DNA from: Bacteroidota bacterium
GTDB lineage: Bacteria; Bacteroidota; Ignavibacteria; UBA10030; UBA8401
DNA length: 46,434 nucleotides
Assembly: GCA_030679145.1 (NCBI GenBank)
Contig: JAUXTU010000099.1
Span: 1-46,434 of the forward strand
Direction: 5' to 3'
The translations under genes and the position numbers were made by a program. The notes beneath the pieces were generated by a model. The model searched no databases. It was not told the origin of the DNA and worked only from the letters and a program-made list of their open reading frames with translations. Every line of letters starts with the position of its first letter. Position 1 is the first letter of the stretch. Positions 14,567 to 44,000 of this stretch are shown here, piece by piece.

Positions 14567-15280
14567 CTACAAGAGCTTTGCCACAAGTTTTGGTAGTTGT
14601 TCGCTTGCGCTCCCCTTCAATACCATATATCCGTCAAGCAAATCATAATTAGGGTGAGGATCAATAAAATATTTTTCTTTGGTCCGGCGGAACATTGGAA
14701 GCAATCCCGCGGCAGGATAAACTTGCGCTGATGTTCCAACACCGATAAAGATATCAGCAGACCGTATTTGCTCCATCAAAAATTCTTCCCTCATATCCAC
14801 CGGTTCACCAAACCAAACAATATCAGGCCGCAATTGACCGCCGCATTTTGGGCATGAATCACCGAATTGAATCGGCTTTGTGATCAATGATTTATAGTCA
14901 CAGTCAAAATCATACTGTTCAGGAAAAGCGAGTGATTGGTGAAATTCACATTTTTGTATATCAATACGTCCGTGCAAATGCCAAACATTCTTACATCCTG
15001 CCCGTTCAAGCAGTGTATCGATATTTTGCGTAATATTTAATACAGTATATTTTTGAGAAAGTTGTGCAATTGCATGATGAGCAGGATTTGGAAAACATTC
15101 TGTCTGCTTTATAAATCGCATTGCATAAAAATCGAGAACAAGTTTCTTATTTTTTGACCATCCTTCAGGAGACGCAACATCTTCGATACGATGCTGTTCC
15201 CACAATCCGCCGCTGTCGCGAAATGTCGGAATACCGCTTTCCGTTGAAAGTCCTGCTCCGCTAAAGATGACAATGTTCAT
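14567..15280 (-). CDS. cobB: NAD-dependent protein deacylase (sirtuin, CobB type)
   Basis: The 237-residue protein uses NAD to remove acyl groups from lysines. It has the NAD-binding GAGLSTESGIPTFR, the TQNIDTL segment and HLHG with catalytic His103. Tyr52 and Arg55 (FYAMR) match the YxxR pair that lets class III sirtuins such as CobB and SIRT5 accept succinyl- and malonyl-lysine. The zinc region has Cys111, Cys127, Cys143 and Cys146, with only the second pair in the CxxC form. The frame extends to 15316, but that region is a terminator hairpin; ATG 15280 gives the usual start MNIVIFSGAG. It converges on ppc. Confidence 0.93.
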   Translation of the reverse strand: MNIVIFSGAGLSTESGIPTFRDSGGLWEQHRIEDVASPEGWSKNKKLVLDFYAMRFIKQTECFPNPAHHAIAQLSQKYTVLNITQNIDTLLERAGCKNVWHLHGRIDIQKCEFHQSLAFPEQYDFDCDYKSLITKPIQFGDSCPKCGGQLRPDIVWFGEPVDMREEFLMEQIRSADIFIGVGTSAQVYPAAGLLPMFRRTKEKYFIDPHPNYDLLDGYMVLKGSASEQLPKLVAKLL

Positions 15281-15284
15281 ACAA

Positions 15285-15313
15285 TAAAAAAGGACAGACA
15301 TGAATGCCTGTCC
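15285..15313 (-). terminator. Intrinsic terminator of the envelope operon, directly before the sirtuin start
   Basis: On the minus strand GGACAGGCAT and ATGTCTGTCC (15313-15292) pair over 10 positions with one G-U, followed at once by TTTTTTATT (15291-15283). It is 24 bases after the stop of the NHL lipoprotein gene and ends five bases before the sirtuin ATG. Confidence 0.8.
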
Positions 15314-15336
15314 CAATAAAATTCAAAAAATGTATT

Positions 15337-16425
15337 CTAATTATTTGTTGAAAGGCGATACAGAACAATACGGTTATTTTGAGTATCGCAAACATAGAGC
15401 GTATTTTCAGCAACTGCCACACTTGAAGGACCACGAAGTGAAATCCCCGAGGTGCGCGTTCCAAAGGATTCAGATTTCAATCTCCCTCGGCTATTAAATT
15501 TGGATATACTATCCAATTGTGAATCAACAATAAAGATATCGCGTTTGATTCTGTCGATACCTACGCCTTTTGCATTTTGAAACCTATTAGGATTGACAAA
15601 ATCAATATTTCGTTGATCAGGATTAGAAGGATCATATTTTGGTATCCACCCTTCAAAATCTGCCGTCTTTGAAAACACCATCCATATCGCAGCGTATTGA
15701 ATTCCATCAGAGCTTTGAGTTACAATAAAATCTCCACTATTCGGGAACGTCGCCAAATTAGTCGGATGATTGATATTTGTTATTGAACTTCCGGCACCGG
15801 ATTGCAATTCACCGAGAGGAGTGATAAATGAATCTTTCTTTCCGGATGCATCAGGTCTATATCGAAAACGGAGAATGCGGGCATCAGGATCTACAAAACT
15901 GCTATTATCCGGCCCATCTCTTGCAATAAGAAATTCATCATTCAATATTACTCCGATACCGGTAAACCGTCTTTTCGGTCGTGCAGGTTCCTTCCACACA
16001 GTATCCATATTTGCAACATCTAGATGATGTGCAAAGGGAACTAATTTTATTCTAAGGACAATACCGATCGTGTCGCCATTCGCTTCAATGGTTTCAGCTC
16101 CAACCAGAAGGTCAAGACGCTGATCTTGTGCAACAGAGATTGGATGAAGAATCTTCCTGCTGACACTTAAAATTTGCCCTGCCTGATTGAGCATCACAAT
16201 GCGATTATTATATGTATCTGTCACGTAAATAAGCTGATCTTGCCCATACAAGATTGAAGTCGGCTTATTAAAAATTCCTCCCCAAGAACTTTTTTCAATA
16301 TATGTTGTATCACCGATCGTCACAATATCCGTTATCTTTGGAAGTGTCGAAAGGTCAAATTTTTCCTGACACCCAATAAAAAAAAGGGCGGATAAAATAA
16401 AAAATATAGAAAAGATTTTTTTCAT
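15337..16425 (-). CDS. NHL-repeat beta-propeller lipoprotein
   Basis: The 362-residue protein begins MKKIFSIFFILSALFFIGC, a lipoprotein signal with the lipid-modified cysteine at residue 19. The body contains NHL-type propeller blades, clearest as VTDTYNNRIVMLNQAGQI near residue 70 and VCDTQNNRIVLYRLS at the C-terminus, with intermediate blades such as IFIVDSQLDSISKFNSRGRL. NHL propellers usually bind protein or glycan ligands rather than catalyse. The frame can be extended to 16521 but that overlaps the upstream gene; the ATG at 16425 gives a proper signal peptide. It is last in the six-gene envelope operon, 22 bases behind the PorV-like gene. Confidence 0.8.
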   Translation of the reverse strand: MKKIFSIFFILSALFFIGCQEKFDLSTLPKITDIVTIGDTTYIEKSSWGGIFNKPTSILYGQDQLIYVTDTYNNRIVMLNQAGQILSVSRKILHPISVAQDQRLDLLVGAETIEANGDTIGIVLRIKLVPFAHHLDVANMDTVWKEPARPKRRFTGIGVILNDEFLIARDGPDNSSFVDPDARILRFRYRPDASGKKDSFITPLGELQSGAGSSITNINHPTNLATFPNSGDFIVTQSSDGIQYAAIWMVFSKTADFEGWIPKYDPSNPDQRNIDFVNPNRFQNAKGVGIDRIKRDIFIVDSQLDSISKFNSRGRLKSESFGTRTSGISLRGPSSVAVAENTLYVCDTQNNRIVLYRLSTNN

Positions 16426-16447
16426 GAAACTTTTTAGTTCACCAATT

Positions 16448-17488
16448 TTAATACGTAATTGAAACCGATATTCTTTGCACTTTTCCCAAATCATTGAAAT
16501 TGGTATAAGCGTAATCAACATTTGCCGTGGTAATACCTAACGGGATTCGAACTCCACCACCAAATGACAGATCTTCCGCAGTCGAAATAGATTTCCCTAA
16601 AAATGATTCACCAATTGTTCTTTTTACTCCTGCGCGGAGAAAGAACATTTTATCATATTCATATTCACAGCCGAAACGGATATTTTCTGCATTGTCATTA
16701 GGATGATTCAATTGTATAGAAGTTGTTAATCTATTAACATCATCCTGCCATGGTTCAAATGCATATCCGAGCCTGAACAATGTTGGGGGAGAAAATTCCT
16801 GAAACGAAGAAACAGTTTCAGCTTTTCCATTCTTCACCGAACCTGTTGGTCTTACATTATTTCCAAAATTCGAAACTACAACAGAAAACCGTGAAGTTCC
16901 TAGACCCATATAATAAAATGTCCCGATATCAATAAGAATAGCATCTGAATGAAGTTCGGCTATCGTTTCACGCACGTAACGAACAGTGGTACCAAAACTA
17001 AATTGATCTGTCATTTTTCGCGCATACGTTCCGCCAATTGCAATATCGTGATAGTTAAAATAATTCCCGGTTCCTGTCGGTTGGTATTCAGTTGTAATTT
17101 GCATTGGAGAGGTTGTTAACGAAGTAAAAGACAGTGCTACAATATTATTATCATCCAACCGGAGACTGGCGGCGGCGAAATCATATTTTAAATCAACCAA
17201 CCATTCTGCATGAGAGAATATCGCTTGATTAGAACTTGAACTTGTCAGTCCGGCGGGATTCCAATAAACCGATGAAACATCATTGACAACTGCAACAAAC
17301 GATTCGCTCATAGAAGACCCGCGAGCATCGGCACCAATCTTCAGGAATTGAAAAGAAGAAATACCGGATCGCTGTCCACCAAGGTTTGGAACAAACTGAG
17401 CAATTGAACTTTGAACAAATAACACAGAGAATAGTATCACTACTATAGAGTACCAAAATTTTATATGTTTAGGATAATGTTTAATCAT
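16448..17488 (-). CDS. PorV/PorQ-family outer-membrane beta-barrel protein
   Basis: The 346-residue protein has a signal peptide ending near SSIAQ and then FLKIGADARGSSMSESFVA and VSSVYWNPAGLTSS, the signature N-terminal region of the PorV/PorQ family (FadL-like barrels). In T9SS, PorV is the shuttle that binds the sorting domain of a secreted protein and brings it to the PorU sortase; paralogues often serve particular cargo. The chain ends in alternating beta-strands closing with RISVSITY. It begins one base after the TonB-dependent receptor stop and lies downstream of two T9SS-like secreted proteins, so a dedicated cargo shuttle role is plausible but inferred. Confidence 0.85.
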   Translation of the reverse strand: MIKHYPKHIKFWYSIVVILFSVLFVQSSIAQFVPNLGGQRSGISSFQFLKIGADARGSSMSESFVAVVNDVSSVYWNPAGLTSSSSNQAIFSHAEWLVDLKYDFAAASLRLDDNNIVALSFTSLTTSPMQITTEYQPTGTGNYFNYHDIAIGGTYARKMTDQFSFGTTVRYVRETIAELHSDAILIDIGTFYYMGLGTSRFSVVVSNFGNNVRPTGSVKNGKAETVSSFQEFSPPTLFRLGYAFEPWQDDVNRLTTSIQLNHPNDNAENIRFGCEYEYDKMFFLRAGVKRTIGESFLGKSISTAEDLSFGGGVRIPLGITTANVDYAYTNFNDLGKVQRISVSITY

Positions 17489-17489
17489 T

Positions 17490-20342
17490 CTAGAATCGAA
17501 ATGAAATTCCTAATTTGGCATTACGCGGAGCAAGATATCTTGCCGGATTATACGGAAATGGTGAAACGGTTCCTTGTAAATCCGGATAAAGCGGATCATT
17601 GTATGTTAACGGAGTTTTATCTCCATACTCATACGCTTTACCGGTGATTGGATTTACAATCTGTGAATTCTTATTATCAAACAAGTTTTGAATTTCAAGA
17701 GAGAGTGTCATTTTTGCAAAACCTAAATCGAAATATTTTTCCATGTTCAGGTTTGCATAGAACCAGAATTCACCAACTCCCTGCGACAAATTTGTATAAT
17801 CTGTTCGATATTCAGGTCTTCCATCAGATCCAATACCTGAGTATAATTGCGGGGTGAATCTTTTTCCGGATTGGAAAAAGAAACGTGTATACACATTATA
17901 ATCACTGAAATTCAGAGGGGCATCCTCAAATAACGGCTCATTCTTTTTCACATTCAAATTAGCTGTGATCTGTGCCTGTAAAGGACGATCCCATGAGACA
18001 TAGTTTTCTTTAATGGATGTTTCGAGTCCGCCACTTGACAAATTGAACAATGCCTCGGTTGCTGAAGAACTCTTCCCTGTTGAAATAGAGTATGAACCCG
18101 AAAAAGTAGTTTGAAAACTAGATGTAAAACGGTGAGTATATTCTAATTCAAAACCCCGAGTTCTTGCGTAATCTGAATTTACATATGTTGTATATGAACC
18201 GGAGAAACGAACGCTTGTAGAACGAACAGAGCGAGCTGTGATATAATCAAAGATATCTTTATAGTACGCAGTAAGAGTAAAAACATCATTTTCAGTAATC
18301 TGATTCCGAAGTCCAAGTTCGTATGCCACAGTAGTTTCAGGATTCAAATTGGGGTTACCGATAATTTGAGAAGATGAGCGAGCACTGCTTTCTGTGAGTT
18401 TTGAATAAACGTACGTTGGTCGTGGAAGTTTGGAAAAGTGTCCGTAAGAAAAGAACAATGTTTGATTATCTGAAACCGGATGCGAAATTCCAAGTCGAGG
18501 ACTCAAACGTCCCTTCCAACGTCTTCCAAAAAGTACCGATGTTTGACCCTTGTATTGTTCACGGATATCCTCCGAAGCTAATGGAATGTTAGGATTATTT
18601 ATTGCATCATCAACAAATTTTCCGGGGAACCAATAATCAAAGCGAAGTCCAAAATTCAAAACCATTCCGCTGATTGAGATATTATCCTGAACATAAATAG
18701 CACCGCTTGCGGGACTCACCTCATAAATATCATTGTTCAAACCAAGCGGCTTAATCCATGGCTGTGTAATATCTGCCATCTGCATATTCTGAAACTTCAT
18801 CTCAATTCCAGATTTGAATTTATTTTTTTCAGTAAAATGATTTGTAAAGTCAAATTTTATGGAATAATCATCGATAAAATGATCTCTCCAACTATTTGGA
18901 CCACCAACGTCAAAAAAACCATCGCCGGGAATAACACCAACTTTTGAACTGTCTTGATTATAATATTGTATTGGAAGCGTAACAATATCGCGTGGCTCAT
19001 TGTATTGACTATAATCCTTCCCATTCGCATCACCACGCACATGTGCGGAATATCTACTTAAAACAATTTCATAAAATGATTTCGAGCTTAGCGTTTGAGT
19101 CCAAGCAATAGAATGTTGAATGTTAATTTGCGTATATGTTGCAGCGCTATCTAGAATCTTTTGGTAATCGAATTGATATCCAGGCTGAGGATCCTCCCGT
19201 TCTAAAGTTGTTTTTACAGTTGCAGAGTTTTGATCAATCGAAACAGATTGATTATAAGAATATGCAAGTTTTTCAGTAGGAGAAATTCTCCATGTAAATT
19301 TTGTTGCCCAGGAAAATGCATTTGAAAGGCGGAATGCGAAATCTTTTCCTTTGAAAATTGTTGAATATAATTGTGTGGGAACACGTTTGGAGTATGTTCC
19401 GTTATTTTTTCCATTAACAATATTTTCCATCCACCGTGTATATCCATCCGAGATGTTGCCGGAAAAATTTCCAAAAAATGTAACTGTCCCCGGAAGCAGA
19501 TCATTGATAATTGGAACCGGCCCGCTAAAATTCGTTTCAAAAATATCCGTGTTGAAAAAATGCCTGGAATTTGATCCAACAAACCGATCTGTTTTATAAC
19601 CAAAACCGCCGCTGTATTTATCACTTCCTTCTTTCATCGTGATTTTAATAACGCCCGAAGTCGCCTGCCCATATTCAGCGTTATATCCACCGGTGATTAC
19701 TTCCATTTCCTGAATTGCTTCGGGACTGACTTGAAGACCAAATCCGCTGCCGCCAAGAACATCCTGCACAGAAACACCATCAACCAAATAAGCATTTTCA
19801 TAACCACGACTGCCGCGAATATGAATTTCGTTATCGGACTGTACTACACCTGTTTGAAGCCCAACAACATCTTTTACATCGGTCAATGCCGCAACGGTAA
19901 GATCTTCATTTCGAATTATTTTCTTACTGGAAGTTTCTTCAACATCGAACAATCTTTTCTCACCAATAATAACAACTTCCTGACCAAGAGAAAGAACAGA
20001 TTCTGTCATTTTTACATTTAATTCGAGATTTTTTCCAGCTTCTACTTTTATTCCTGAATATTGTACAGTCTTATATCCCAACAAAGTCACATCGATATTA
20101 TAGACACCTGCGTTAAGGTGTTCAATTTTGAAATTTCCATCAAAATCGGATGAGGCGCCGTAATATGTCCCTTTAACAAGAATGTTTACACTTGGTAGAC
20201 CTTCTTTTGTATTCTCATCAACCACTCTGCCAACAATACTTCCGGTTGACGACTCTGTCTTTTGAGCAAATGAACTACCCATCATCAAGATCATCAGAGT
20301 GCTCAATAAAAAGACATTGCAATATTTGAATATATTATTCAC
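17490..20342 (-). CDS. TonB-dependent outer-membrane receptor with carboxypeptidase-like N-terminal domain
   Basis: The 950-residue protein has a signal peptide (ending near SSFAQ), a CarboxypepD-regulatory-like beta-sandwich at about 33-115 (TGSIVGRVVDENTKEGLPSVNI), a plug domain at about 130-235 (EIHIRGSRGYENAYLVDGVSVQD and GGYNAEYGQATSGVI), and a long beta-barrel ending in the terminal phenylalanine (LGISFRF) needed for BAM insertion. Such receptors import large ligands using TonB energy. It starts with GTG, overlapping the previous stop by one base (TAGTG), and the PorV-like gene follows one base after its stop, so the three are translationally linked. No SusD partner is present, so it is not a classical SusCD pair; the ligand is unknown. 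Confidence 0.9.
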   Translation of the reverse strand: MNNIFKYCNVFLLSTLMILMMGSSFAQKTESSTGSIVGRVVDENTKEGLPSVNILVKGTYYGASSDFDGNFKIEHLNAGVYNIDVTLLGYKTVQYSGIKVEAGKNLELNVKMTESVLSLGQEVVIIGEKRLFDVEETSSKKIIRNEDLTVAALTDVKDVVGLQTGVVQSDNEIHIRGSRGYENAYLVDGVSVQDVLGGSGFGLQVSPEAIQEMEVITGGYNAEYGQATSGVIKITMKEGSDKYSGGFGYKTDRFVGSNSRHFFNTDIFETNFSGPVPIINDLLPGTVTFFGNFSGNISDGYTRWMENIVNGKNNGTYSKRVPTQLYSTIFKGKDFAFRLSNAFSWATKFTWRISPTEKLAYSYNQSVSIDQNSATVKTTLEREDPQPGYQFDYQKILDSAATYTQINIQHSIAWTQTLSSKSFYEIVLSRYSAHVRGDANGKDYSQYNEPRDIVTLPIQYYNQDSSKVGVIPGDGFFDVGGPNSWRDHFIDDYSIKFDFTNHFTEKNKFKSGIEMKFQNMQMADITQPWIKPLGLNNDIYEVSPASGAIYVQDNISISGMVLNFGLRFDYWFPGKFVDDAINNPNIPLASEDIREQYKGQTSVLFGRRWKGRLSPRLGISHPVSDNQTLFFSYGHFSKLPRPTYVYSKLTESSARSSSQIIGNPNLNPETTVAYELGLRNQITENDVFTLTAYYKDIFDYITARSVRSTSVRFSGSYTTYVNSDYARTRGFELEYTHRFTSSFQTTFSGSYSISTGKSSSATEALFNLSSGGLETSIKENYVSWDRPLQAQITANLNVKKNEPLFEDAPLNFSDYNVYTRFFFQSGKRFTPQLYSGIGSDGRPEYRTDYTNLSQGVGEFWFYANLNMEKYFDLGFAKMTLSLEIQNLFDNKNSQIVNPITGKAYEYGDKTPLTYNDPLYPDLQGTVSPFPYNPARYLAPRNAKLGISFRF

Positions 20343-22078
20343 TAGTTCAATTGGAATTCGTCTTCAACGATATGTTTAAAAAATGCAGGGAGGTTTTTAT
20401 TACCATTCATTTTATGCAGAGGCAGAGCTATAAGAACAAAACGTTTTGAATTATCAATACATCCAATTTCAGGCGTACCACTGTAACGGAATGTACCATT
20501 TGTATAATAGTTCTTTGATGAATCAAGCGCATAGATATATTCTGAGTCCGTTCTTTTATAAACACGACGCCAGTTAAAGTTATGAATGGTTGAGGTTGAG
20601 TCAAAAGCCAATTGCGGATACGTGTTGTTGAGCGAAAGAACTTTTGTTCCCCTCGGAATTCGTAAATCGGCATTTGTATGCAAATTTGTACTTGAATTTG
20701 CATCCGTCGTTACACTATCAATAGGAGCAAAATCATTCAATGCTCTCACATCCGCAAACGATATAAAGGAAGGAAATGTTGTTGAAAATATCACTTTGCC
20801 GCCCGTCTGGGTATAATGATATAATCCAATTTGGGCAGGTAAATAACTCGGGTATAAATCACTATACCAAAAAACAATATCAAATAACTTTAATGTTTGG
20901 ATAAGTTGCGGGTTCATATTTTTGGGGACAAACACTCCATATTTTTGTAGAGTCAATTGATTTTGTTTTTCATCCGCCGTCATTCCGAATCCAATATCAA
21001 GGACATCAAAGTTCGAATATGATTTCCCCGGTAATGCATCTTCTATAATCGTTCGGAAAATTGATACGGCAGTCGGTTGGTCGGGTTGATTATAATCAAC
21101 AACAAACAACATTTTACTTTTAGGTTTTTTAACGAACCATTTTTTAGATGGGCTCGAGGGCATTGTTATAACTTTTGAAAATTCACCTGCAACATCTTTT
21201 GCCTGCACGTAGAGAATATTCTCTGCATCTAACTTTAATCCTTTTATTTTCCCTCTCAACTGCATATTGGGAAATATTCCCGTATAGACATCCGCGTCTG
21301 CAACGTTCAAAGAGATATTGCTCACAATGCGTGGAACAATAAGTGTTACGAATGTAACGGTATTGTTTACTGTGAGCCATCGATCAGAAGTTGATGTATC
21401 ATTAAGAGCTAAACGGTAAGAAGCAATAGTTTGATCTCCGTCGATATCTGTTCCGTACCAAGAAAATGTCGCAACTGTGAATGTTGTTTCAGGTTGTTGT
21501 ACAGTTGATGAGTCCAACGTATTGACGGAGAAGAAAACATTTGGAGGTGTATTACGTAACGGCAACAATTGAATAGATCCTTTGGGATCTATAGAATTTG
21601 ACAATGAAGAGAGCGTAACATCTACACTGTCAAATATTCCATTTGTATTTTTATCCCAATACGGCTGTGGGATTAATCTGATTTGAGCATTTTGGGAAAG
21701 CTGCTTCGGGTCAAACGTATTATCAACTGATCGAATAATGACCGTAAAACTATCCCTCTTCGTCAATAATGGCAAAGAAATTATACTGTCTGTTCTTGTT
21801 GTCCAATAATAGGTGCTTGTATCAGGATAAGGTAGGGTTCCATGTAAGCGATAATTCCCCGAAGTAATAAGATATCCAACAACAATTCCATCCGGATCTT
21901 CTCCGTACCAATATAAATGTTGACGCGAAGAGGATTCTAAAAGCGTAGAGTCCGAAACGATATACAATCGCGTTGATGGTAACTGGTTTGGTTTCGGTTG
22001 GTTTGGAAGTTCTTTTTGACAAGAACCAATTAGAAATCCGGCAACAACAAGGATAATATTTTTGGAAATATTTTTCAT
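20342..22078 (-). CDS. Uncharacterised lipoprotein with Ig/fibronectin-like repeats
   Basis: The 578-residue protein starts MKNISKNIILVVAGFLIGSC, a lipoprotein signal with Cys20. Two similar segments, LYWYGEDPDGIVVGYLI near residue 55 and FSWYGTDIDGDQTIASYRLAL near 205, look like repeated Ig/fibronectin-type domains with an acidic DxDG loop. The C-terminal half (MLFVVDYNQPDQPTAVSIF, DIVFWYSDLYPSYLP, GGKVIFSTTFPSF) resembles a flavodoxin or class I amidotransferase-like alpha/beta fold without a catalytic triad that I can identify. A hairpin lies five bases before the start codon. It overlaps the receptor gene by one base, so it probably works with it, perhaps as a surface-exposed partner. Confidence 0.7.
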   Translation of the reverse strand: MKNISKNIILVVAGFLIGSCQKELPNQPKPNQLPSTRLYIVSDSTLLESSSRQHLYWYGEDPDGIVVGYLITSGNYRLHGTLPYPDTSTYYWTTRTDSIISLPLLTKRDSFTVIIRSVDNTFDPKQLSQNAQIRLIPQPYWDKNTNGIFDSVDVTLSSLSNSIDPKGSIQLLPLRNTPPNVFFSVNTLDSSTVQQPETTFTVATFSWYGTDIDGDQTIASYRLALNDTSTSDRWLTVNNTVTFVTLIVPRIVSNISLNVADADVYTGIFPNMQLRGKIKGLKLDAENILYVQAKDVAGEFSKVITMPSSPSKKWFVKKPKSKMLFVVDYNQPDQPTAVSIFRTIIEDALPGKSYSNFDVLDIGFGMTADEKQNQLTLQKYGVFVPKNMNPQLIQTLKLFDIVFWYSDLYPSYLPAQIGLYHYTQTGGKVIFSTTFPSFISFADVRALNDFAPIDSVTTDANSSTNLHTNADLRIPRGTKVLSLNNTYPQLAFDSTSTIHNFNWRRVYKRTDSEYIYALDSSKNYYTNGTFRYSGTPEIGCIDNSKRFVLIALPLHKMNGNKNLPAFFKHIVEDEFQLN

Positions 22079-22083
22079 TATAG

Positions 22084-22116
22084 AATCCCGTCAAAGGTTC
22101 ACTCTTTGACGGGATT
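22084..22116. promoter_or_regulatory. Intercistronic hairpin just before the lipoprotein start codon
   Basis: AATCCCGTCAAAG (22084-22096) and CTTTGACGGGATT (22104-22116) form a perfect 13-bp stem with a 7-base loop. On the minus strand the hairpin begins 6 bases after the T9SS protein stop and ends 5 bases before the ATG at 22078, with no T-run. It would cover the ribosome-binding region and could reduce downstream expression or mark an mRNA processing point. Confidence 0.6.
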
Positions 22117-22122
22117 AAAGAT

Positions 22123-24384
22123 CTATTTTACAAGAAGCATTTTTTTAACTTGAACAAAATTTCCGGAAGAAATTCTATAAAGATACATTCCCGTGGAAAG
22201 TTTGGATGCATCAAATTTTACAGAATATGTTCCGGATGTTTGGTACTCGTTCACCAAGGTTGCAACTTCTTGACCAATTACATTGTACACTTTTAGCAGC
22301 ACTGTTCCTGCATTTTTAAGCGAGTAACTGAACGTTGTTGAAGGATTAAATGGATTAGGATAATTTTGTTCAAGAGAATATTCTCCTGGCAACACATTAT
22401 TCCGAGTGATCTGCACTCCTAAAACCGGAGAGAAACCTACAAAATCAGCATTTGTCCTAGGAACAATTTTATAGCGACCAAAACTATAGTGAAGGACACC
22501 TGCCATTGAAGCAAATTTATCTCCAACCTTAACAACTGTTAATCCAATTCCCGTATCTGCTATGACGTTTGAATACTTATTTTTACCATCACGACGAACA
22601 AGCATTGATTGATTACTATTCGAGATCGAATATTCAGTAGCATCACTAAAAACTGGGTCAATGCTTTTCACTTCAACAGAATCGAACTGAACAAGCATCC
22701 CCTCGTACGGTTCTGCATTCAAATTACCATTACTTGCTGCATCACCAAAACGTTCTGTCTTTAACTTTACAAATGCCGGCAAGGGATTTCCCGAAGAAAC
22801 AACACGTGCTGATGTAATATTAAATAATTCTGTAACATCGTTAAATTCAGAAATCGAACCAGTGACAATAACACTATCACCAATTTTTATTTTACGCATA
22901 ATTGAGTCCGGACCAACAACCCACAAACCACTCCACGGTGTATTTCCGCTTTGTATATAATATCCGCTCGGTCCACCGGCAGAAAGAGCAGAAACACGAA
23001 GTGCAGAAGTGTCAACAGTTACAATACCTCCAACAGAATCAATTGCTCCAAGATATGGTGTTCTTCCATTGTTGAAAGGGGTTCTTTGAACATCACTTGG
23101 CAACAATATTTTTTGAGCATCTCTGTCTAAAACAGTATAGAAGAAAAACCCTTTTGATGTATCAAATTGTGTTAACACACTACTATTTGATAAATGGACA
23201 ACCGAACCGACAGAATCAGTTACCCGAATAAAATAACTCACCGTTGAACCAACAACTTGTTTTGGAATCTGTACTAAATACGTACTGTCACTCGGATGAC
23301 TCACCATAGGTATTTCTTGCCAAGCTCCATTTCCAACTCTATAAACAACTCCTGCTGTTGTAATACTTCCGGTTTTTAAGATCGGGTCATTTTGACGATA
23401 AATTTTTGCAGAAATTGTTGGTGTGGAATCATTGTCAACAATAATGGGGTTTCTTCTATGAGTTGTTACCGAAGGAGGCAATGTTTTTCCGTATACGACA
23501 TCCCCGGGATATATTGGAGAAATTCTATACCCTCTATTAGACTCCTGTCCAGACACTGCGCCAATGTATCCAATTAATGTATCAATCGGAGTTCCCAACA
23601 ATGGTACTTTATAATTTAAATCATGAGGATTACCAACTCTGTCTACTGAGGTTGTATCAACAGTAAAATGATATGACCAGTCATAATCTGAAAGTGTATT
23701 TCCATTTTCATCAACGAATTGCCATGTGCCCCTTGACGAATTAACAATAGCGCCAACCCTGACATTTGTAAACATCACTCTCATCCCCTCCCACTTTTCA
23801 CCTGTTGTGAATTTTACTTTCCCACCAGGATTGTTACCAATATTAAAATCTGAGACCGACAATTTCACTGGTGCTGGCAATGGATTACCTGAAGAGAGAA
23901 TTTCAATTTTTATTCCAGCAATAGGGGTGAATTGCGTTGCACTTTCCATTGCACCTGAAGGAAATTCATCAATAATTCCGGTTATTTTAATGATATCACC
24001 CTGTTCAATAGTAAATAAACCAGCCGCGTCTGCAGCTGCATTCCCGCCACTATATCGAACAAAAATTCCGGAGTATGGATCCGAAGCAGTAACACCGGTA
24101 TCAGTTATACACAAAGTATTTCCCAAAGCAGTATAAGTAATTACTTTAGCTGGAACTGTAACCAATGCAATGACGCTAACTGTTTCTCTTTGAGTCGTAT
24201 TAATTCTATACATTGTAGATGCCTGGAGCAGCCATCTCGGTGTTACGCCAACTCCCAAAGAATCAGCAATTTTTAGCGAATCAGGATGTACAGTTTGAAT
24301 TTCTTTAACGGTAACAATTCTGTAATCCTTAGCGTAGACACTAAGCAGGCCAGCCAATACAAAGAACAATAAAAACTTTTTCAT
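22123..24384 (-). CDS. Secreted protein with OB-fold-like repeats and a T9SS type A sorting domain
   Basis: The 753-residue protein has a signal peptide (MKKFLLFFVLAGLLSVYA) and, in its last 85 residues, a classic type A T9SS sorting domain: LEQNYPNPFNPSTTFSYSL, LLKVYNVIGQEVATLVN, and GMYLYRISSG with a terminal LLVK. Two OB-fold-like segments are visible: around 90-165 (GIFVRYSGG with GDIIKITGIIDEFP) and around 455-530 (GLWVVGPDS with GDSVIVTGSISEF). A beta-sandwich region lies between (around 310-390). OB units of this type occur beside nuclease or lamin-tail domains in secreted proteins, but no catalytic domain is evident, so a binding role is more likely. A strong GAGGAGG precedes the ATG. 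It follows the other secreted protein by 41 bases in the same operon. Confidence 0.85.
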   Translation of the reverse strand: MKKFLLFFVLAGLLSVYAKDYRIVTVKEIQTVHPDSLKIADSLGVGVTPRWLLQASTMYRINTTQRETVSVIALVTVPAKVITYTALGNTLCITDTGVTASDPYSGIFVRYSGGNAAADAAGLFTIEQGDIIKITGIIDEFPSGAMESATQFTPIAGIKIEILSSGNPLPAPVKLSVSDFNIGNNPGGKVKFTTGEKWEGMRVMFTNVRVGAIVNSSRGTWQFVDENGNTLSDYDWSYHFTVDTTSVDRVGNPHDLNYKVPLLGTPIDTLIGYIGAVSGQESNRGYRISPIYPGDVVYGKTLPPSVTTHRRNPIIVDNDSTPTISAKIYRQNDPILKTGSITTAGVVYRVGNGAWQEIPMVSHPSDSTYLVQIPKQVVGSTVSYFIRVTDSVGSVVHLSNSSVLTQFDTSKGFFFYTVLDRDAQKILLPSDVQRTPFNNGRTPYLGAIDSVGGIVTVDTSALRVSALSAGGPSGYYIQSGNTPWSGLWVVGPDSIMRKIKIGDSVIVTGSISEFNDVTELFNITSARVVSSGNPLPAFVKLKTERFGDAASNGNLNAEPYEGMLVQFDSVEVKSIDPVFSDATEYSISNSNQSMLVRRDGKNKYSNVIADTGIGLTVVKVGDKFASMAGVLHYSFGRYKIVPRTNADFVGFSPVLGVQITRNNVLPGEYSLEQNYPNPFNPSTTFSYSLKNAGTVLLKVYNVIGQEVATLVNEYQTSGTYSVKFDASKLSTGMYLYRISSGNFVQVKKMLLVK

Positions 24385-24425
24385 TTTTCCTCCTCATACA
24401 TTAATAAATATAGTACAGTAATTTT

Positions 24426-26639
24426 CTATTTTACAATGACAAATTTACCGCGTTTCAAATCACCGGTATCAAGATTCTTTACAGTAAACAAATACAACCC
24501 TGTTGCGATAGCCTGATCATATTTTGAAATCAAATCCCACGCATGTTCACCGCCGGCAAATTCAGGTGAGACACCAAGTGTCTTAAAATCATCGAACCAT
24601 TTTATTCCTGAACCATCATATGTCTGCGAATCATGAAGTAATTCCGCAACCAAATCCCCTGTCATCGTATAGATTTTTATTTCAGCATGCGCAGACAGAT
24701 TCGTAAAATATATCTTCCGCGTTCGCTCTCCGGTTCCATCCCACGAGGCATTCGAATAATATGGATTTGGATAAACACCAATTTCGCTGCTTCCATTTGC
24801 AGAAACTTTCATTCCCGGAACAACACGTTTAATGACTTTAGCACATTCTAAACTTGTTAAACCATTCGCCGAATCCCCTGCATCGAATGCAGACACACCG
24901 TAAAGATACTGCCAACCGTTCAAACTTGTAATCGGATCATCTTTTGGCGGAAATTGATACCAATATTCAACCGTATCTCCATCAAACTTTTTAGGAGCAT
25001 CCAATTTAATTTTCTGTAAGCCGGTATTGTAACCGATATTATCATCTGATCTGTCAAATTCACCAACTAATTGCATCGATAACAAAAAATTTTCCGGGCT
25101 GGAAACATCGGCACCTGGTGATGAACGATAAATTCTATATCCTTCGAAATCGTAGTTTCTGCTTATTGGATCAAAGCTCTGTTCAGCTTGTACTTTGTCC
25201 CAAAATATAGTAACCCGTTGATTTTCAACAAGTGTCCGAACCCGAGGTTGCCTTGGCGGTTGCGGTAATGTAAATCGGTTTAATTTACCATCTCCATTTA
25301 TATCCTCTCCGACATCCAACGCATTATTACCGTTCAAATCTTCTCCGTTATAAGCTTGTTGAGCCCATCCCGAATTGGAATATAGTTGTACTCTGAGTTT
25401 TGGATTTTTATAATCTTCGGATGGTGCAAAACTACCTAGTTTTTTTGCACAGACCAATGCAAATACTACCTGAACACTGTCTCCGGGAGGAAAAGATTTA
25501 AAAGGTCCGACTGAAAGAAGATCGGTCATACTTGCCGGAGCTTCACCTGTGGTAATTCCGTCCGATGAAAGGACATTTGAAGGACGGCCAAGCGCTTCAA
25601 TATTTGGTTTCGGCATCTTGCGCGATAAGCGCTGATATTTACCCCGAAAAGAATTGTCAAGAAATTCTTGATCGGGGAAAAAATATACTTCACTGCCTGA
25701 TCGGTTATTGAACTTCCATCCATTGTAGTATGTATTCTTATATAGATCGCCGAGGGAGTCAAGTTTTTTATCAGAATAATAATATGTTTTATTGAGATCA
25801 ATAACAGAATCTTTTAATGGGAATGGGTTTGTTCCGAGCAATTTGTAACCATAATAACTGTTTGCCGGAGGTCCATACGGTGCCCCATCAAAATCAAATG
25901 TATATCCCAATCTCAAACTATCAATAAACCCTTTTGCGGAATGGTTATAAAAATCTCTTCCGCCAGGTCTTCCGGTTAGTTTAGTGTTTCTTACAACTGC
26001 ATTGTTCCATAGTCCAACGTAAAGTCCATCAATAGTATCAACACTTGCATTCTTAATTGTATAGCTGAGGATAACAAAAAAATCTGCAAAAGGAAAATTC
26101 CACGCATATGATTCGAGGTGAATATCAACACCAAGCGGAATATGATTTGGAATCGAATCTCCGGTATCAGGTATACGAGTATTTCTGTCGGTAAAATCCA
26201 TAACCATATCTTGATGACTAATCGCATTCAAATCAAAATACGGAGATTCAGTCAGAGTGGATCGGAGTGTTATTCCTTTTCCAATATCACTTGTCATCTC
26301 AAAACCTTCAGCCTGCCTTCTCACTGAACCTATGTCAACTGCCGCAGTGGAAACGTGAACAACACCCTCTTTTCTTGGAATGCCTCCAATCCAAAGACCG
26401 CCCAAAAAAAGATGTTCGATGCCGGACCCCTTGGGATATTCAAGAGACGGTTGATTCGGCCAAGTGGTAAATCCATTGCCTATTGTACCAAAATTTGTAA
26501 TTGTAACGCCAAGATTTCCGACGTTAGTATATTTTGTACCATCATCATCTGCAATTTTACTTAAAGATTGACCATAGAGCGGAGCTACACCGAGGGTGAT
26601 CAAAATAAGGGGGAGGAAAAAATTAATCAGTCGTTGCAA
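24426..26639 (-). CDS. Large secreted protein with a calcium-binding-like loop and a C-terminal FlgD/T9SS-like domain
   Basis: The 737-residue protein has a signal peptide ending near LYGQS. The body is not a family I can name. Around 435-455 is GEDLNGNNALDVGEDINGD, an acidic, regularly spaced loop pair like dockerin or thrombospondin type 3 calcium loops, and after it a fibronectin-like stretch (RVTIFWDKVQAEQSF, FEGYRIYRSS). The C-terminus (GVYPNPYYSNASWDG, AEIKIYTMTGDLVAEL, ATGLYLFTVKN, KRGKFVIVK) is a FlgD-like or T9SS sorting domain, so it is probably exported through T9SS and surface-anchored. The frame begins with TTG at 26637-26639; no clear ribosome-binding site is visible, so the exact start is uncertain. 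It is the first gene of the six-gene operon. Confidence 0.75.
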   Translation of the reverse strand: MQRLINFFLPLILITLGVAPLYGQSLSKIADDDGTKYTNVGNLGVTITNFGTIGNGFTTWPNQPSLEYPKGSGIEHLFLGGLWIGGIPRKEGVVHVSTAAVDIGSVRRQAEGFEMTSDIGKGITLRSTLTESPYFDLNAISHQDMVMDFTDRNTRIPDTGDSIPNHIPLGVDIHLESYAWNFPFADFFVILSYTIKNASVDTIDGLYVGLWNNAVVRNTKLTGRPGGRDFYNHSAKGFIDSLRLGYTFDFDGAPYGPPANSYYGYKLLGTNPFPLKDSVIDLNKTYYYSDKKLDSLGDLYKNTYYNGWKFNNRSGSEVYFFPDQEFLDNSFRGKYQRLSRKMPKPNIEALGRPSNVLSSDGITTGEAPASMTDLLSVGPFKSFPPGDSVQVVFALVCAKKLGSFAPSEDYKNPKLRVQLYSNSGWAQQAYNGEDLNGNNALDVGEDINGDGKLNRFTLPQPPRQPRVRTLVENQRVTIFWDKVQAEQSFDPISRNYDFEGYRIYRSSPGADVSSPENFLLSMQLVGEFDRSDDNIGYNTGLQKIKLDAPKKFDGDTVEYWYQFPPKDDPITSLNGWQYLYGVSAFDAGDSANGLTSLECAKVIKRVVPGMKVSANGSSEIGVYPNPYYSNASWDGTGERTRKIYFTNLSAHAEIKIYTMTGDLVAELLHDSQTYDGSGIKWFDDFKTLGVSPEFAGGEHAWDLISKYDQAIATGLYLFTVKNLDTGDLKRGKFVIVK

Positions 26640-41063: not shown

Positions 41064-44000
41064 CTACCGCATCTTCACTAACTTTGAAAGCCCTTCAACC
41101 TGTTTTCCCCCCTGTTTCACTATCACTTTGTAAAGATAAACACCGTTTCCAATCTGATCTCCGTCTTTGTCCCGTCCATCCCATGGAATTTTATTAAAAC
41201 CTATAATCCCTAGTGCCGAAATTTCATGGATGAGGCGTCCGGCAACAGTATATATTTTGATTTTTATTTCATCTGGATTGACCGGACCAATTATCGTAAA
41301 AGTAAATTGGGTTGATGATGAAAACGGGTTTGGGATATTATATATTTCTTGAATCTTATAATTGGAAGATACAAATAAAGAAAGATCAAGAATATTACCA
41401 AATTCCTTTGAATTATCAGAAAAATTTTTCGTGGATATTTTTATTGAATTCTCATCATTTTGAAGCTCCGGAAACCACCGCAGATGTGCTTTCCCCGCGT
41501 TTCCGGTCGGTATAAATTCAAATTTATTTGTTTGATCAATGGTAACAGATAAATTATTCAGCGTAATTTCAAACAGTGATGTATCTTGAATCGTCAATAT
41601 CGAATTGAGATTGTCAAAAAATAAAATATTAATCTCCGGTGTTTTTTGCACAAATTCGCCAGGTATTGGTTTAATCCCATCAACAGTAACAGATATTGTA
41701 GGGCGAGTTGTGTCTTGTTCAACTGTATATGGTATAGTAATGGAGTTGTTATTTTTATAAAATTCCGGAATCCGATTATTTTCATCAACAATAATTCTTA
41801 GGGCATGGTTTCCTCGAAATCCTTTTGTCTCATAGACCAAAGAAAATGAGGAAGAATCATTCTCATTAATCTTCCCGACAGAAATTGATTTGAGCAATCG
41901 CTCTGAAATTCCTAAATCATTAGAATAGATTGATACGTACACCGTATCAGATCCAACTGCTCCGACATTTTTGACTTTACCGGAAATCAACATAGATTCA
42001 CCTTCAGGTATGACCTGTTTATTAAGCGTTATCATGGATGATGACAGCGCTAATTCCGGAGGAGCTGATGCCTCAAATGACCATCCCTGTAAGATAGGAG
42101 TTTGATTGAATGAGTTTGCATTGAGGGAAAATAACAATTTCATCTTTTGATATTTATTTGAAAGTGAATCTGCTAAAACAAATACAGTATCAATTTTGGA
42201 AATGATGGTATCATTCAATAATGAAGAATGCACTCCAATAATTTTTGTTTCGATAGAAGAACCGATCGGCTGAATAGATTTAAGAGATAATTTTTTCCAT
42301 TGAACCGCAGGTCCAATTTCTTGCGTAATCAGTTGTCCAATTTTTTCTTGTTTAATATATGTCGTTTCAATGATCGCTTTTTGACCTGAACCCGAAGCAA
42401 AATAGACTTCTTTTGCAGATCCCGGTGATCCTCCCTTTATTCCGACAACAGCCCATGAATCTCTAAATTTGAGAAGTGATGCCTTTGACGCACCAATTTG
42501 AGAGTACGCATTGCGCGCAGCTGTGGTAAAATTGTTTGCACCTTCATCTATTACAACTGACACAACAATTTGACCTGAAGGAATAGCATTTAAAAATGCA
42601 ATCAATGAATCTGCGTTTGATGGCTGATTGAATAAATCAAAAGTTCGGACTGATTGAACTTCATATTGAATTGTATCCATTACGACTAAAGAATGACCGA
42701 CACTAAATGAATTGAAGAGAACATTGATTCCATTAATTTCAACAACTCCAAAATTTCCATCAAGCGCGCCTGAAGAAATAGCTTTTAACGAAATGAGTGT
42801 GGGTGATATCTTGATTCCTTTAGATGAATTATCAAAGATAGTTTTTGAAAAAGAATTACTGCTAAATGCTGCAGAATCAAATTGACCAAACAATACCGTT
42901 GAATCCGGAGAAGAATAAAATGTTCCTTCAGTCCAACTAAAGGATGATTGTAACTTTGCCCGCCAGTAATACCGCCGCCCGGGTGTCAATGCAGGAATTA
43001 AAAGTTCAGTTGTAACATTACCGCTTGGCGTATTAAATACTTGTGCGGTGGAATAGTTTTTTAGTGAATCAATTTCTATTTGTACATTCTCATTTCCCCC
43101 CGCTACTGTCGTAACGGGTTTCAAGAGAACAAGCTTATCCACTTTTTGTACGTTAAATTTTGGCGGAAAAAGTATTTGAAAACTTGATGATAGAACCGGA
43201 AACGAAAATGTGGTATTGTTATCATTCTCTGAAAGTTCAGCAATACGATCATTAACATCAAGACTTGCTGTCAACGAGTGCTGCCCGGCTTTTCCATGGA
43301 TACCAATTGAAAATTGTATTGTATCTTGAAAACGTGGAACAGGTATCGTTGAAGTAACAATATTTGTCACAACATTATTGTAGGTATGTTTTATTGTAAT
43401 GGTTACAGAATCATTAATAACCTTGCCGTAGTTGCTAATAACATATTTTATTGCCGCTGTGTCCAAATCATCACTTAAATTTTGATCCACAATAAATGAA
43501 CTCTGATCTGTTGACAAATTTGGTTTTTTGGGGATTGCAAGTTCTAATGAAGGATCACCAACAAATTCACTCGTATATAACATCACCACATTTGTAGTAG
43601 TAAAGTTCTGTTGTGCTAATGTAATTTTAGCATTCATATGTGCTTTGCTAATGGAATATAAAGAGTCTTTCAAAAGATTTTTATACAGCTCTATCGGCAG
43701 CGTTGTTGCCGTACTTGTAAAACCAAGTGCGGAATTTCCTATATATCCAATGGCATTCGAAACAGGTCCGAGAACAAAAACTTCACTGAACGATAAATAA
43801 TCCGGTTCAGCAAATTTACCCGTTGAACACCCAAAATCTGATAAAAAAGAACTGCGATTGCGAGAATTCTTCAACTGCGACGGATCACCGATACTATTGT
43901 CCCATGTTTGTGTTCCGCTGTGCCCTATGTATGATATAAAAACCGCACCATTTGAGATCACATCTTTCACCTGCAACGATGTATAAGGTCCAAAATCAGA

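Follow-up and report, generated by a model that had tools for sequence, protein, structure and literature searches.

The window, that is, the whole 46,434-nt stretch of DNA analysed here (Bacteroidota bacterium; Ignavibacteria; UBA10030; UBA8401; assembly GCA_030679145.1, contig JAUXTU010000099.1), carries six minus-strand genes running from 26639 to 15337 in the order FIRST-OBtail-LIPO-TBDR-PorV-NHL, each found where a preliminary description of this DNA had placed it, and a terminator:

24426..26639, minus strand: FIRST, secreted surface protein of 737 aa
22123..24384, minus strand: OBtail, secreted protein of 753 aa with a canonical T9SS type A tail
20342..22078, minus strand: LIPO, lipoprotein of 578 aa
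17490..20342, minus strand: TBDR, 950 aa, with a CarbopepD_reg domain, a plug and a TonB-dependent receptor barrel
16448..17488, minus strand: PorV, PorV/PorQ-family outer-membrane barrel of 346 aa
15337..16425, minus strand: NHL, NHL-repeat lipoprotein (likely start 16425, lipobox identified by eye; longest ORF to 16521)
15291..15314, minus strand: intrinsic terminator 3′ of NHL, the last operon gene (hairpin plus T run, RNA fold)

The spacing of 41, 44, -1, 1 and 22 bases proposed earlier was reproduced from the ORF ends, with the last gap counted from the lipobox start of NHL, whose longest ORF overlaps PorV. The terminator is strong (a 10-pair hairpin with its T run at 15314-15291, 22 bases past the NHL stop; RNA fold of -14.8 kcal/mol, z -4.2), and a gap of 123 bases lies upstream of the operon. 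A consensus promoter scan did no better than shuffles (50 vs. 49.3 sites). Rfam searches gave no match in the window at E≤0.1 and none at gathering level in seven relatives, and hence no cobalamin riboswitch was found in either. FIRST had no match in a search against plasmids.

Conservation of the gene order in related genomes was the check proposed in the preliminary description. Of 80 named loci, 41 had the complete order and 32 more were consistent with it as far as their stretch reaches. A phylum-wide set of 40 loci, 33 of them from outside the class Ignavibacteria, had it complete in 35 and cut in 3. Some genomes enter these sets more than once, under separate handles. Such recurrence over many genera and families goes beyond chance. 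The six-gene operon is ancient, its order retained across many genera and families of Bacteroidota, rather than unique to this strain. Together with the terminator after the last gene, the order kept outside the class also supports the proposal that the six genes form one unit. The 28 sampled operon PorVs, a subset, fell on one side of a branch (100/99) in a tree with a long-branch warning among the paralogues.

The prediction of a TonB-dependent receptor without a SusD held up: TBDR qualifies as such a receptor by both its plug (PF07715, 43.7 bits vs. a cut-off of 23.9) and its barrel (PF00593, 82 bits vs. 27), and the source genome had no match to SusD-like_3 (PF14322, the SusD model searched). 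The same two domains, and the order kept outside the class, support the suggestion of a surface uptake system. The two domains also weigh against a surface attachment or envelope-assembly complex in which the receptor-like protein would be structural and import nothing, a view that we consider distinctly improbable. It can draw on how well the receptor is conserved (63% mean column identity over 16 sequences) and on the big extracellular caps that Bacteroidota place on barrels for assembly, as in BAM with BamG-K (PMC12578637). However, the paralogous modules resemble uptake loci by eye, and FIRST, unlike an essential assembly factor, was missing (E≤1e-20, among the matches listed) from several sampled Ignavibacteria genomes, including every listed genome of family f11.

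NHL contains NHL repeats (44.8 bits, cut-off 20), and PorV belongs to the PorV/PorQ family NF033709 (204.9 bits, cut-off 90). It could be assigned neither to the T9SS core PorV (NF033710, 90.5 bits vs. 250), nor to PorQ (NF033711, 89.9 vs. 220), nor to PorV2 (NF052325, 86.4 vs. 325). Two secreted proteins with T9SS or FlgD-like tails had been predicted; both are indeed tailed, with a different kind of tail on each. OBtail has a canonical type A cargo tail (Por_Secre_tail, 43.9 bits vs. 27), whereas FIRST falls below the canonical cut-off (13.9 vs. 23) and shows a weak match, in the tail only, to the PorZ C-terminal model (NF052228, 24 bits vs. a cut-off of 260). FIRST and LIPO gave no Pfam family at E≤0.1. 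LIPO combines an FN3-like N-terminal half with a class-I-glutamine-amidotransferase-like C-terminal domain (approximately residues 319-578), and its Cys20 is invariant in 54 sequences. OBtail contains one or more OB-fold-like regions related to extracellular nucleases; no catalytic nuclease domain was detected in it. In one relative (L089), a single ORF joins parts of FIRST, LIPO and OBtail. The long LIPO proteins (870-899 aa) of loci without OBtail were considered as OBtail fusions, and none of the three examined had an OBtail match.

Fold searches, which cover the families listed and in which absence of a fold is no evidence of a new one, matched FIRST residues ~29-459 to the beta-sandwich region at the N-terminus of GH94/GH116 enzymes (Z 19.4, rmsd 3.4, 259 aligned); a probable FN3-like part, seen by eye, and the PorZ/PorU-like C-terminal domain follow. 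This match raises the alternative of a glycan uptake complex of the same architecture, with an oligosaccharide ligand as in SusCD and with the nucleases described below present by chance or for another purpose. The C-terminal domain of LIPO, which resembles ThuA-like and beta-galactosidase-associated GATase domains in fold searches, agrees with this alternative, as do carbohydrate-type domains among the 39 OBtail orthologues scanned (CHB_HEX_C_1 in 5, CBM_56 in 4 and SusE in 3) and the neighbours of paralogous modules, some of which by eye resemble sugar transport and glycosidase genes. Thus some findings favour glycans. The fold matches of FIRST nevertheless stop before the catalytic barrel of the GH94/GH116 enzymes, and the gene following the operon tells against glycans, as described below; on balance, we regard this alternative as possible, but unlikely.

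The association of barrel, tail and receptor is not confined to this operon. In nine Ignavibacteria genomes, at least 74 of 113 PorV-family genes were accompanied, within 12 kb and on the same strand, by both a TonB receptor and a PorZ/PorU-like tail (the TonB receptor numbers being lower bounds), compared to a chance expectation of about 2-7% for a TonB receptor near a PorV. The tail lay upstream of PorV in all 74 pairings. Unpaired PorVs numbered 4-5 per genome, 37 in all over the nine genomes, making four core PorVs a genome an approximation. Ten further genomes had 5-14 PorVs each, with LIPO not found in some of the ten; the two 1.7-Mb genomes among them (L083 and L084), with 7 and 9 PorVs, retain the operon. 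Limits outside the source genome were E≤1e-25 for PorV, 1e-15 for the tail and 1e-10 for the receptor.

The source genome has about a dozen sets of TonB receptor, tailed surface protein and PorV, the operon among them (using 16 of 22 PorV matches, those over the cut-off, 16 of 41 tail matches, those of at least 62.8 bits, and 29 of 32 receptor matches). Thirteen of its 16 PorZ/PorU-like tails lie within 12 kb of a PorV, vs. 21 of 150 canonical tail matches, and 10 of the 16 end less than 400 bp upstream of one, vs. none of the 150; 13 of these 16 tails were themselves rows of the tail profile. Against the PDB, this profile had no hits at E≤1 other than PorZ and PorU, and the PorZ model matched 12 of 13 tails. 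In Porphyromonas, PorU and PorZ are surface proteins anchored by PorV/PorQ barrels (PMC8545088). The dedicated PorV-like shuttle of the preliminary description therefore calls for other words: the barrel goes with the PorZ/PorU-like tail of FIRST, and is more likely to be an anchor than a shuttle. We infer that the PorV-like barrel anchors the tailed surface protein as a lipid anchor does for SusD, although three of the 16 tails in the source genome have no nearby PorV, which argues against anchoring.

The gene directly after NHL (slot 7) bears on the ligand. It encodes a nuclease or phosphodiesterase in 25 of 61 loci (11 DNase-I-like, 7 PLD-like, 6 type I phosphodiesterase and 1 endonuclease I), vs. 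3 of 389 other flanking ORFs, a control in which 120 of the 389 were domain-scanned (25 of 163 families listed) and phmmer was run on all 389 with six slot-7 query parts. The three matching control ORFs themselves adjoin the operon (EEP in L270, PLD in L278 and a phosphodiesterase type in L288). In other orders of Ignavibacteria, too, NHL is directly followed by an EEP or PLD-type protein in 14 of 15 additional loci. Because of kinship among the loci and some overlap between the sets, these nuclease counts are not independent. Slot 7 contained no glycoside hydrolase among the 25 of 37 families listed, and its nucleases and phosphodiesterases belong to several unrelated families, both points against glycans. 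The slot-7 nucleases of many relatives suggest that the complex imports external DNA or nucleotides.

The window itself has no slot-7 nuclease, and no linked one was found in the named loci closest to it (L151-L190), where slot 7 is occupied by SIR2, patatin, DUF1028 or others, or is empty. In favour of nucleic acids, solved EEP proteins match the OBtail profile in their N-terminal part (E 1e-9), and DUF5689, a domain of one of the two Riemerella transformation proteins described below, was detected (E≤1e-3) in 8 of the 39 OBtail orthologues scanned (40 less L267, which was left out of the alignment), the window's own OBtail having none at E≤0.1. As regards DNA binding, the operon proteins are not basic (net charge of -14 for FIRST, -11 for TBDR, 0 for OBtail, -2 for LIPO and 0 for NHL, the last counted from the lipidated Cys). 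Also against the nucleic-acid reading, an ORF with an EEP-like motif adjoins another module in the source genome (C6). EEP-type enzymes occur near other uptake loci too.

The same neighbours could reflect general scavenging of phosphate esters (phospholipid head groups, nucleotides and phosphodiesters) rather than of nucleic acids specifically, as EEP, PLD, type I phosphodiesterase (similar to the alkaline phosphatase PafA) and patatin in slot 7 are all phosphoester or lipid hydrolases. We judge this improbable, since the endonuclease I and NucT/ExeM-type matches indicate nucleic acids and the OBtail region is akin to extracellular nucleases.

TonB-driven nucleic-acid uptake is the likeliest reading of the operon, and we hold it with moderate confidence. 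Starting from the observed gene set, order and conservation, the domain and tail types, the receptor/tail/PorV pattern and the nuclease neighbours, we infer a complex, its anchoring by PorV, uptake and a ligand. The operon products would form one outer-membrane uptake complex, with the TonB-dependent receptor as its energised channel. FIRST would reach the surface through the type IX system and be held via its PorZ/PorU-like tail on the PorV barrel of the same operon, acting as membrane anchor. LIPO (FN3/GATase-like), the NHL lipoprotein and the T9SS-secreted OBtail would complete an outer cap for binding the ligand and passing it on to the receptor. That ligand would most likely be extracellular nucleic acid or its fragments, cut in many relatives by the secreted nuclease of the seventh gene. 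More tentatively, and with considerable doubt, the operon may be the machinery by which many non-Bacteroidia lineages of the phylum take DNA up across the outer membrane, with a TonB-driven receptor, a PorV-anchored, T9SS-built cap and a distant match to the CarbopepD_reg/DUF5689 pair that Riemerella requires for transformation. If true, this would be a DNA entry route independent of secretin and pili.

In the open-licence literature, where absence is weak evidence, we found no published description of the operon, including of PorV and a TonB-dependent receptor with Ignavibacter or an NHL repeat. The operon would offer a surface complex conserved among little-studied bacteria (groundwater and fen are among the record titles), a recurrent SusD-free TonB-receptor design in which a PorV-family barrel probably anchors a tailed surface protein, and a testable candidate for extracellular nucleic-acid uptake in these bacteria.

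Several known systems share parts of this design. Like SusCD, the operon combines a CarbopepD_reg-bearing TonB receptor with surface proteins; in contrast to SusCD, its receptor falls well below the SusC/RagA cut-off (TIGR04056, 73.8 vs. 368.25 bits), the partner is T9SS-tailed and a PorV-family barrel is included. BtuB-BtuG pairs a TonB receptor with a beta-propeller lipoprotein, as the operon has TBDR and the propeller-type NHL, but the operon has extra components and lacked any Rfam match in the window or the seven relatives. The PorU-PorV/PorZ-PorQ attachment complex likewise has a PorU/PorZ-type CTD protein adjoining a PorV/PorQ-family barrel. FIRST, however, showed neither a sortase nor a PorZ-type propeller in domain and fold searches, the operon adds a TonB receptor, and the source genome has a separate PorU beside its top-scoring PorV. 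In SprB-SprF, a type B CTD surface protein is anchored by an adjacently encoded cognate barrel of FadL type, PorP-like (PMC9143113); protein and barrel are encoded side by side here too, but the barrel is of the PorV/PorQ family and the tail PorZ/PorU-like. Lastly, natural transformation of Riemerella anatipestifer requires both products of the predicted operon RA0C_RS04915-RS04920, an outer-membrane protein with a CarbopepD_reg domain and a protein with DUF5689 (PMC8459023, whose relevant passages make no mention of PorV, NHL or FIRST partners), a likeness to our operon at the level of domains only.

The six genes proposed to form a single envelope operon were all found on the minus strand (26639-15337), transcribed in the order FIRST (a surface protein with a PorZ/PorU-like tail), OBtail (OB-fold-like, with a T9SS type A tail), LIPO (a lipoprotein), TBDR (a TonB receptor), PorV (an outer-membrane barrel) and NHL (a second lipoprotein). 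The intergenic gaps of 41, 44, -1, 1 and 22 bases in the preliminary description agree with our reading, the last being counted from the lipobox-bearing NHL start at 16425. A hairpin of 10 pairs with a T run (-14.8 kcal/mol, z -4.2 by RNA folding) lies 3′ of the NHL stop, and 123 bases separate the operon from an upstream lytic-transglycosylase/LysM gene. A SIR2 deacetylase gene (14567-15316, minus strand) comes after the terminator, as in three near relatives.

FIRST was matched in 60/60 genomes, 54 at E<=1e-100; the remaining six matches were weak (1e-4 to 1e-24), such as a fragment or tail-sharing paralogues would give. LIPO was matched in 77 of 100 related genomes. The complete six occur in order in 41 of the 80 named loci; 32 end at a contig or stretch end and are consistent up to there, five lack OBtail and have a LIPO of 870-899 aa, and two (L164, L192) stop after OBtail. 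The loci without OBtail are L170, L172, L174, L179 and L183, with the extra sequence inside LIPO in the three looked at. In an even sample of the phylum, FIRST was matched at E<=1e-20 in 96/296 genomes, six of these with weak matches only on our reading of the table; among the matches listed, strong ones fell in 15 families outside the class (Ignavibacteria), and several class genomes went unmatched, the operon not being universal. We fetched 40 loci from this phylum search, 33 from outside the class: 35 were complete and in order, three were cut, and two (L275, L276, both of the class) held FIRST and OBtail only. Since loci were picked for holding FIRST, these counts tell how often the other genes accompany it. 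Median gaps across loci were -4 (LIPO-TBDR), 0-2 (TBDR-PorV) and -1 (PorV-NHL). Genes upstream of the operon differ by lineage. In a midpoint-rooted tree of 43 PorVs, with long branches among the paralogues, the 28 operon PorVs sampled, some of the class and some from beyond it, fell on one side of a branch with support 100/99, separate from 15 paralogues of the window's genome. The operon therefore looks to have been inherited as one unit. A separate 945-aa gene in locus L089 combines the N-terminal part of FIRST, part of LIPO and the C-terminal part of OBtail, a fusion that supports a joint function of the three.

In the window's genome, 16 genes score above the PorV-family cut-off. The surroundings of 11 further places showed a repeated set of a TonB receptor, a secreted protein of 689-1277 aa and PorV, with two secreted proteins on C114 and one additional small gene on C71:

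Paralogous sets (L132-L143): contigs C114, C60, C52, C69, C83, C71, C78, C112, C6, C49, C117

Some sets adjoin genes resembling, by eye, sugar transport or glycosidases; they are a PUL-like family in a genome where the single SusD model searched, SusD-like_3, has no match.

The last 130 residues of FIRST and of the secreted proteins of these 11 sets are alike. A profile built from 13 such tails gave 15 strong matches in the window's genome (the 13 profile rows and two on C98); the next match had 62.8 bits, followed at 42-43 bits by a PorU2-like ORF located in the window and by PorU, and all others had 31.4 bits or less. At E<=1, a PDB search with the profile returned only PorZ and PorU, and NCBIfam models for PorZ, PorU and the canonical tail matched 12/13, 11/13 and 11/13 tails, respectively. 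In this genome, 13/16 tails lie within 12 kb of a PorV and 10/16 directly upstream of one, compared to 21 and 0 of 150 canonical tail matches taken as a control; no PorV was within reach of three tailed proteins, two on C98 and one on C88. The C98 proteins (L231, 1382-8271) are a tandem pair of 1124-1149 aa, on a contig where neither a PorV nor a TonB receptor was found. The PorU2-like ORF (41064-46352, minus strand; 1762 aa, Peptidase_C25 domain) falls short of the NCBIfam 'PorU2' cut-off (394.6 against 450 bits) and matches the tail profile at 43 bits; it is a second PorU-like protein, the first being the PorU that adjoins the top-scoring PorV on contig C12.

In nine class genomes, a TonB receptor and a tail of this type both lay on the same strand as, and no more than 12 kb from, at least 74 of 113 PorV-family genes; among the matches listed, 37 had neither partner and two had one. 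The paired tail was upstream of PorV in 74/74 cases, at 400 bases or less in 61, and in genomes other than the source of the profile a PorV was near 62/70 tails. PMC8545088 describes PorV and PorQ of Porphyromonas as holding the surface proteins PorU and PorZ, the CTD of PorZ staying uncleaved, and PMC9143113 has Flavobacterium SprB anchored by SprF. By analogy with both, the operon PorV would be the anchor of FIRST. In our judgement, the product of the operon is probably a receptor complex in which PorV anchors a tailed protein.

In the FIRST model (pLDDT 86.4), the segment at residues ~29-459 aligns with the N-terminal part of GH94/GH116 enzymes (259 residues at rmsd 3.4, Z 19.4); the alignments stop at the end of this segment, and the remainder of the protein appears too small for the catalytic barrel. 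The LIPO model (pLDDT 90.8) has an FN3-like N-terminal half, with a chitinase FN3 domain match by sequence, and a class-I-glutamine-amidotransferase-like domain at residues 319-578 (best Z 13.7 in a structure search). A fold in common is no proof of function. Among 39 OBtail orthologues, carbohydrate-type matches were to CHB_HEX_C_1 (5), CBM_56 (4) and SusE (3); others were to DUF5689 (8), OB-fold (4) and lamin-tail domains (3). The fold of FIRST and some of these OBtail domains suggest carbohydrates, making a glycan ligand possible, if rather unlikely. Against solved structures, the OBtail profile matched the N-terminal part of two endonuclease/exonuclease/phosphatase (EEP) proteins (E 1e-9) and also an Ig-like stretch in peptidylarginine deiminases.

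A same-strand ORF follows NHL within 400 bases ('slot 7') in 61 of 72 loci with room. In the best 25 of 37 Pfam families, these were DNase-I-like EEP (11), type I phosphodiesterase (6), phospholipase-D (PLD)-like (6), DUF1028 (5), circularly permuted ATP-grasp, patatin, SIR2 and TonB receptor plug (3 each), ATP synthase and permease (2 each), and others; one ORF is an endonuclease I. The DUF1028-type proteins fill slot 7 in L170, L172, L174, L183 and L186 (all five from the family counts, two also from single scans). When phmmer was run with query parts without most of the T9SS tails, 25/61 matched, divided into 11 EEP, 7 PLD, 6 phosphodiesterase and 1 endonuclease I; the same queries matched 3/389 other flanking ORFs, all three adjoining the operon. 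In L270, an EEP-type ORF (14912-16093, minus strand) immediately precedes FIRST, in the same orientation, rather than following NHL. Slot-7 enzymes of these kinds occurred in 14/29 loci outside the class, 2/5 phylum-search loci inside it and 9/38 named loci, with none in the named loci nearest the window. In other orders of the class, an EEP or two-HKD-motif protein directly followed NHL in 14 of 15 further loci (EEP 5, PLD-type 6, LTD+PLD-type 3; L296 had neither), with T9SS-like tails where complete; the sets overlap, at least one of the 15 sharing its contig with a named locus. Irrespective of cut-off, NCBIfam matches in slot 7 were NucT-type (4), ExeM/NucH-type (4) and PafA alkaline phosphatase (6). 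Helicobacter NucT reportedly serves purine salvage from extracellular DNA.

CarbopepD_reg domains, one of which TBDR carries, are common among Bacteroidota receptors, so the following likeness is a lead and not a test. According to PMC8459023, two Riemerella anatipestifer genes, RA0C_RS04915 for an outer-membrane protein with CarbopepD_reg and RA0C_RS04920 for a DUF5689 protein, share a predicted operon and are both essential for natural transformation, and an insertion in a SusC/RagA-type gene reduced transformation frequency; its authors suggest that RA0C_RS04915 takes DNA across the outer membrane. Secreted nucleases are described as common in activated-sludge Bacteroidota (PMC11495043). 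Against a nucleic acid ligand, the window and its nearest relatives are without a linked nuclease and the operon proteins are not basic. The slot-7 genes are also compatible with general phosphoester scavenging, and we consider other phosphoesters an improbable ligand; that nothing is imported at all seems slightly less probable still. Given the missing nuclease, the non-basic proteins, the carbohydrate-like folds and domains and the phosphoester fit, we allow nucleic acid about an even chance of being the ligand.

The components are of known kinds, and we found their combination and its reach nowhere described in our searches of the open-licence literature. Named components of the Bacteroidota BAM complex are BamG-K, BamM and BamP, of which BamG is described as a FadL homologue, like PorV (PMC12578637 and PMC12611786).
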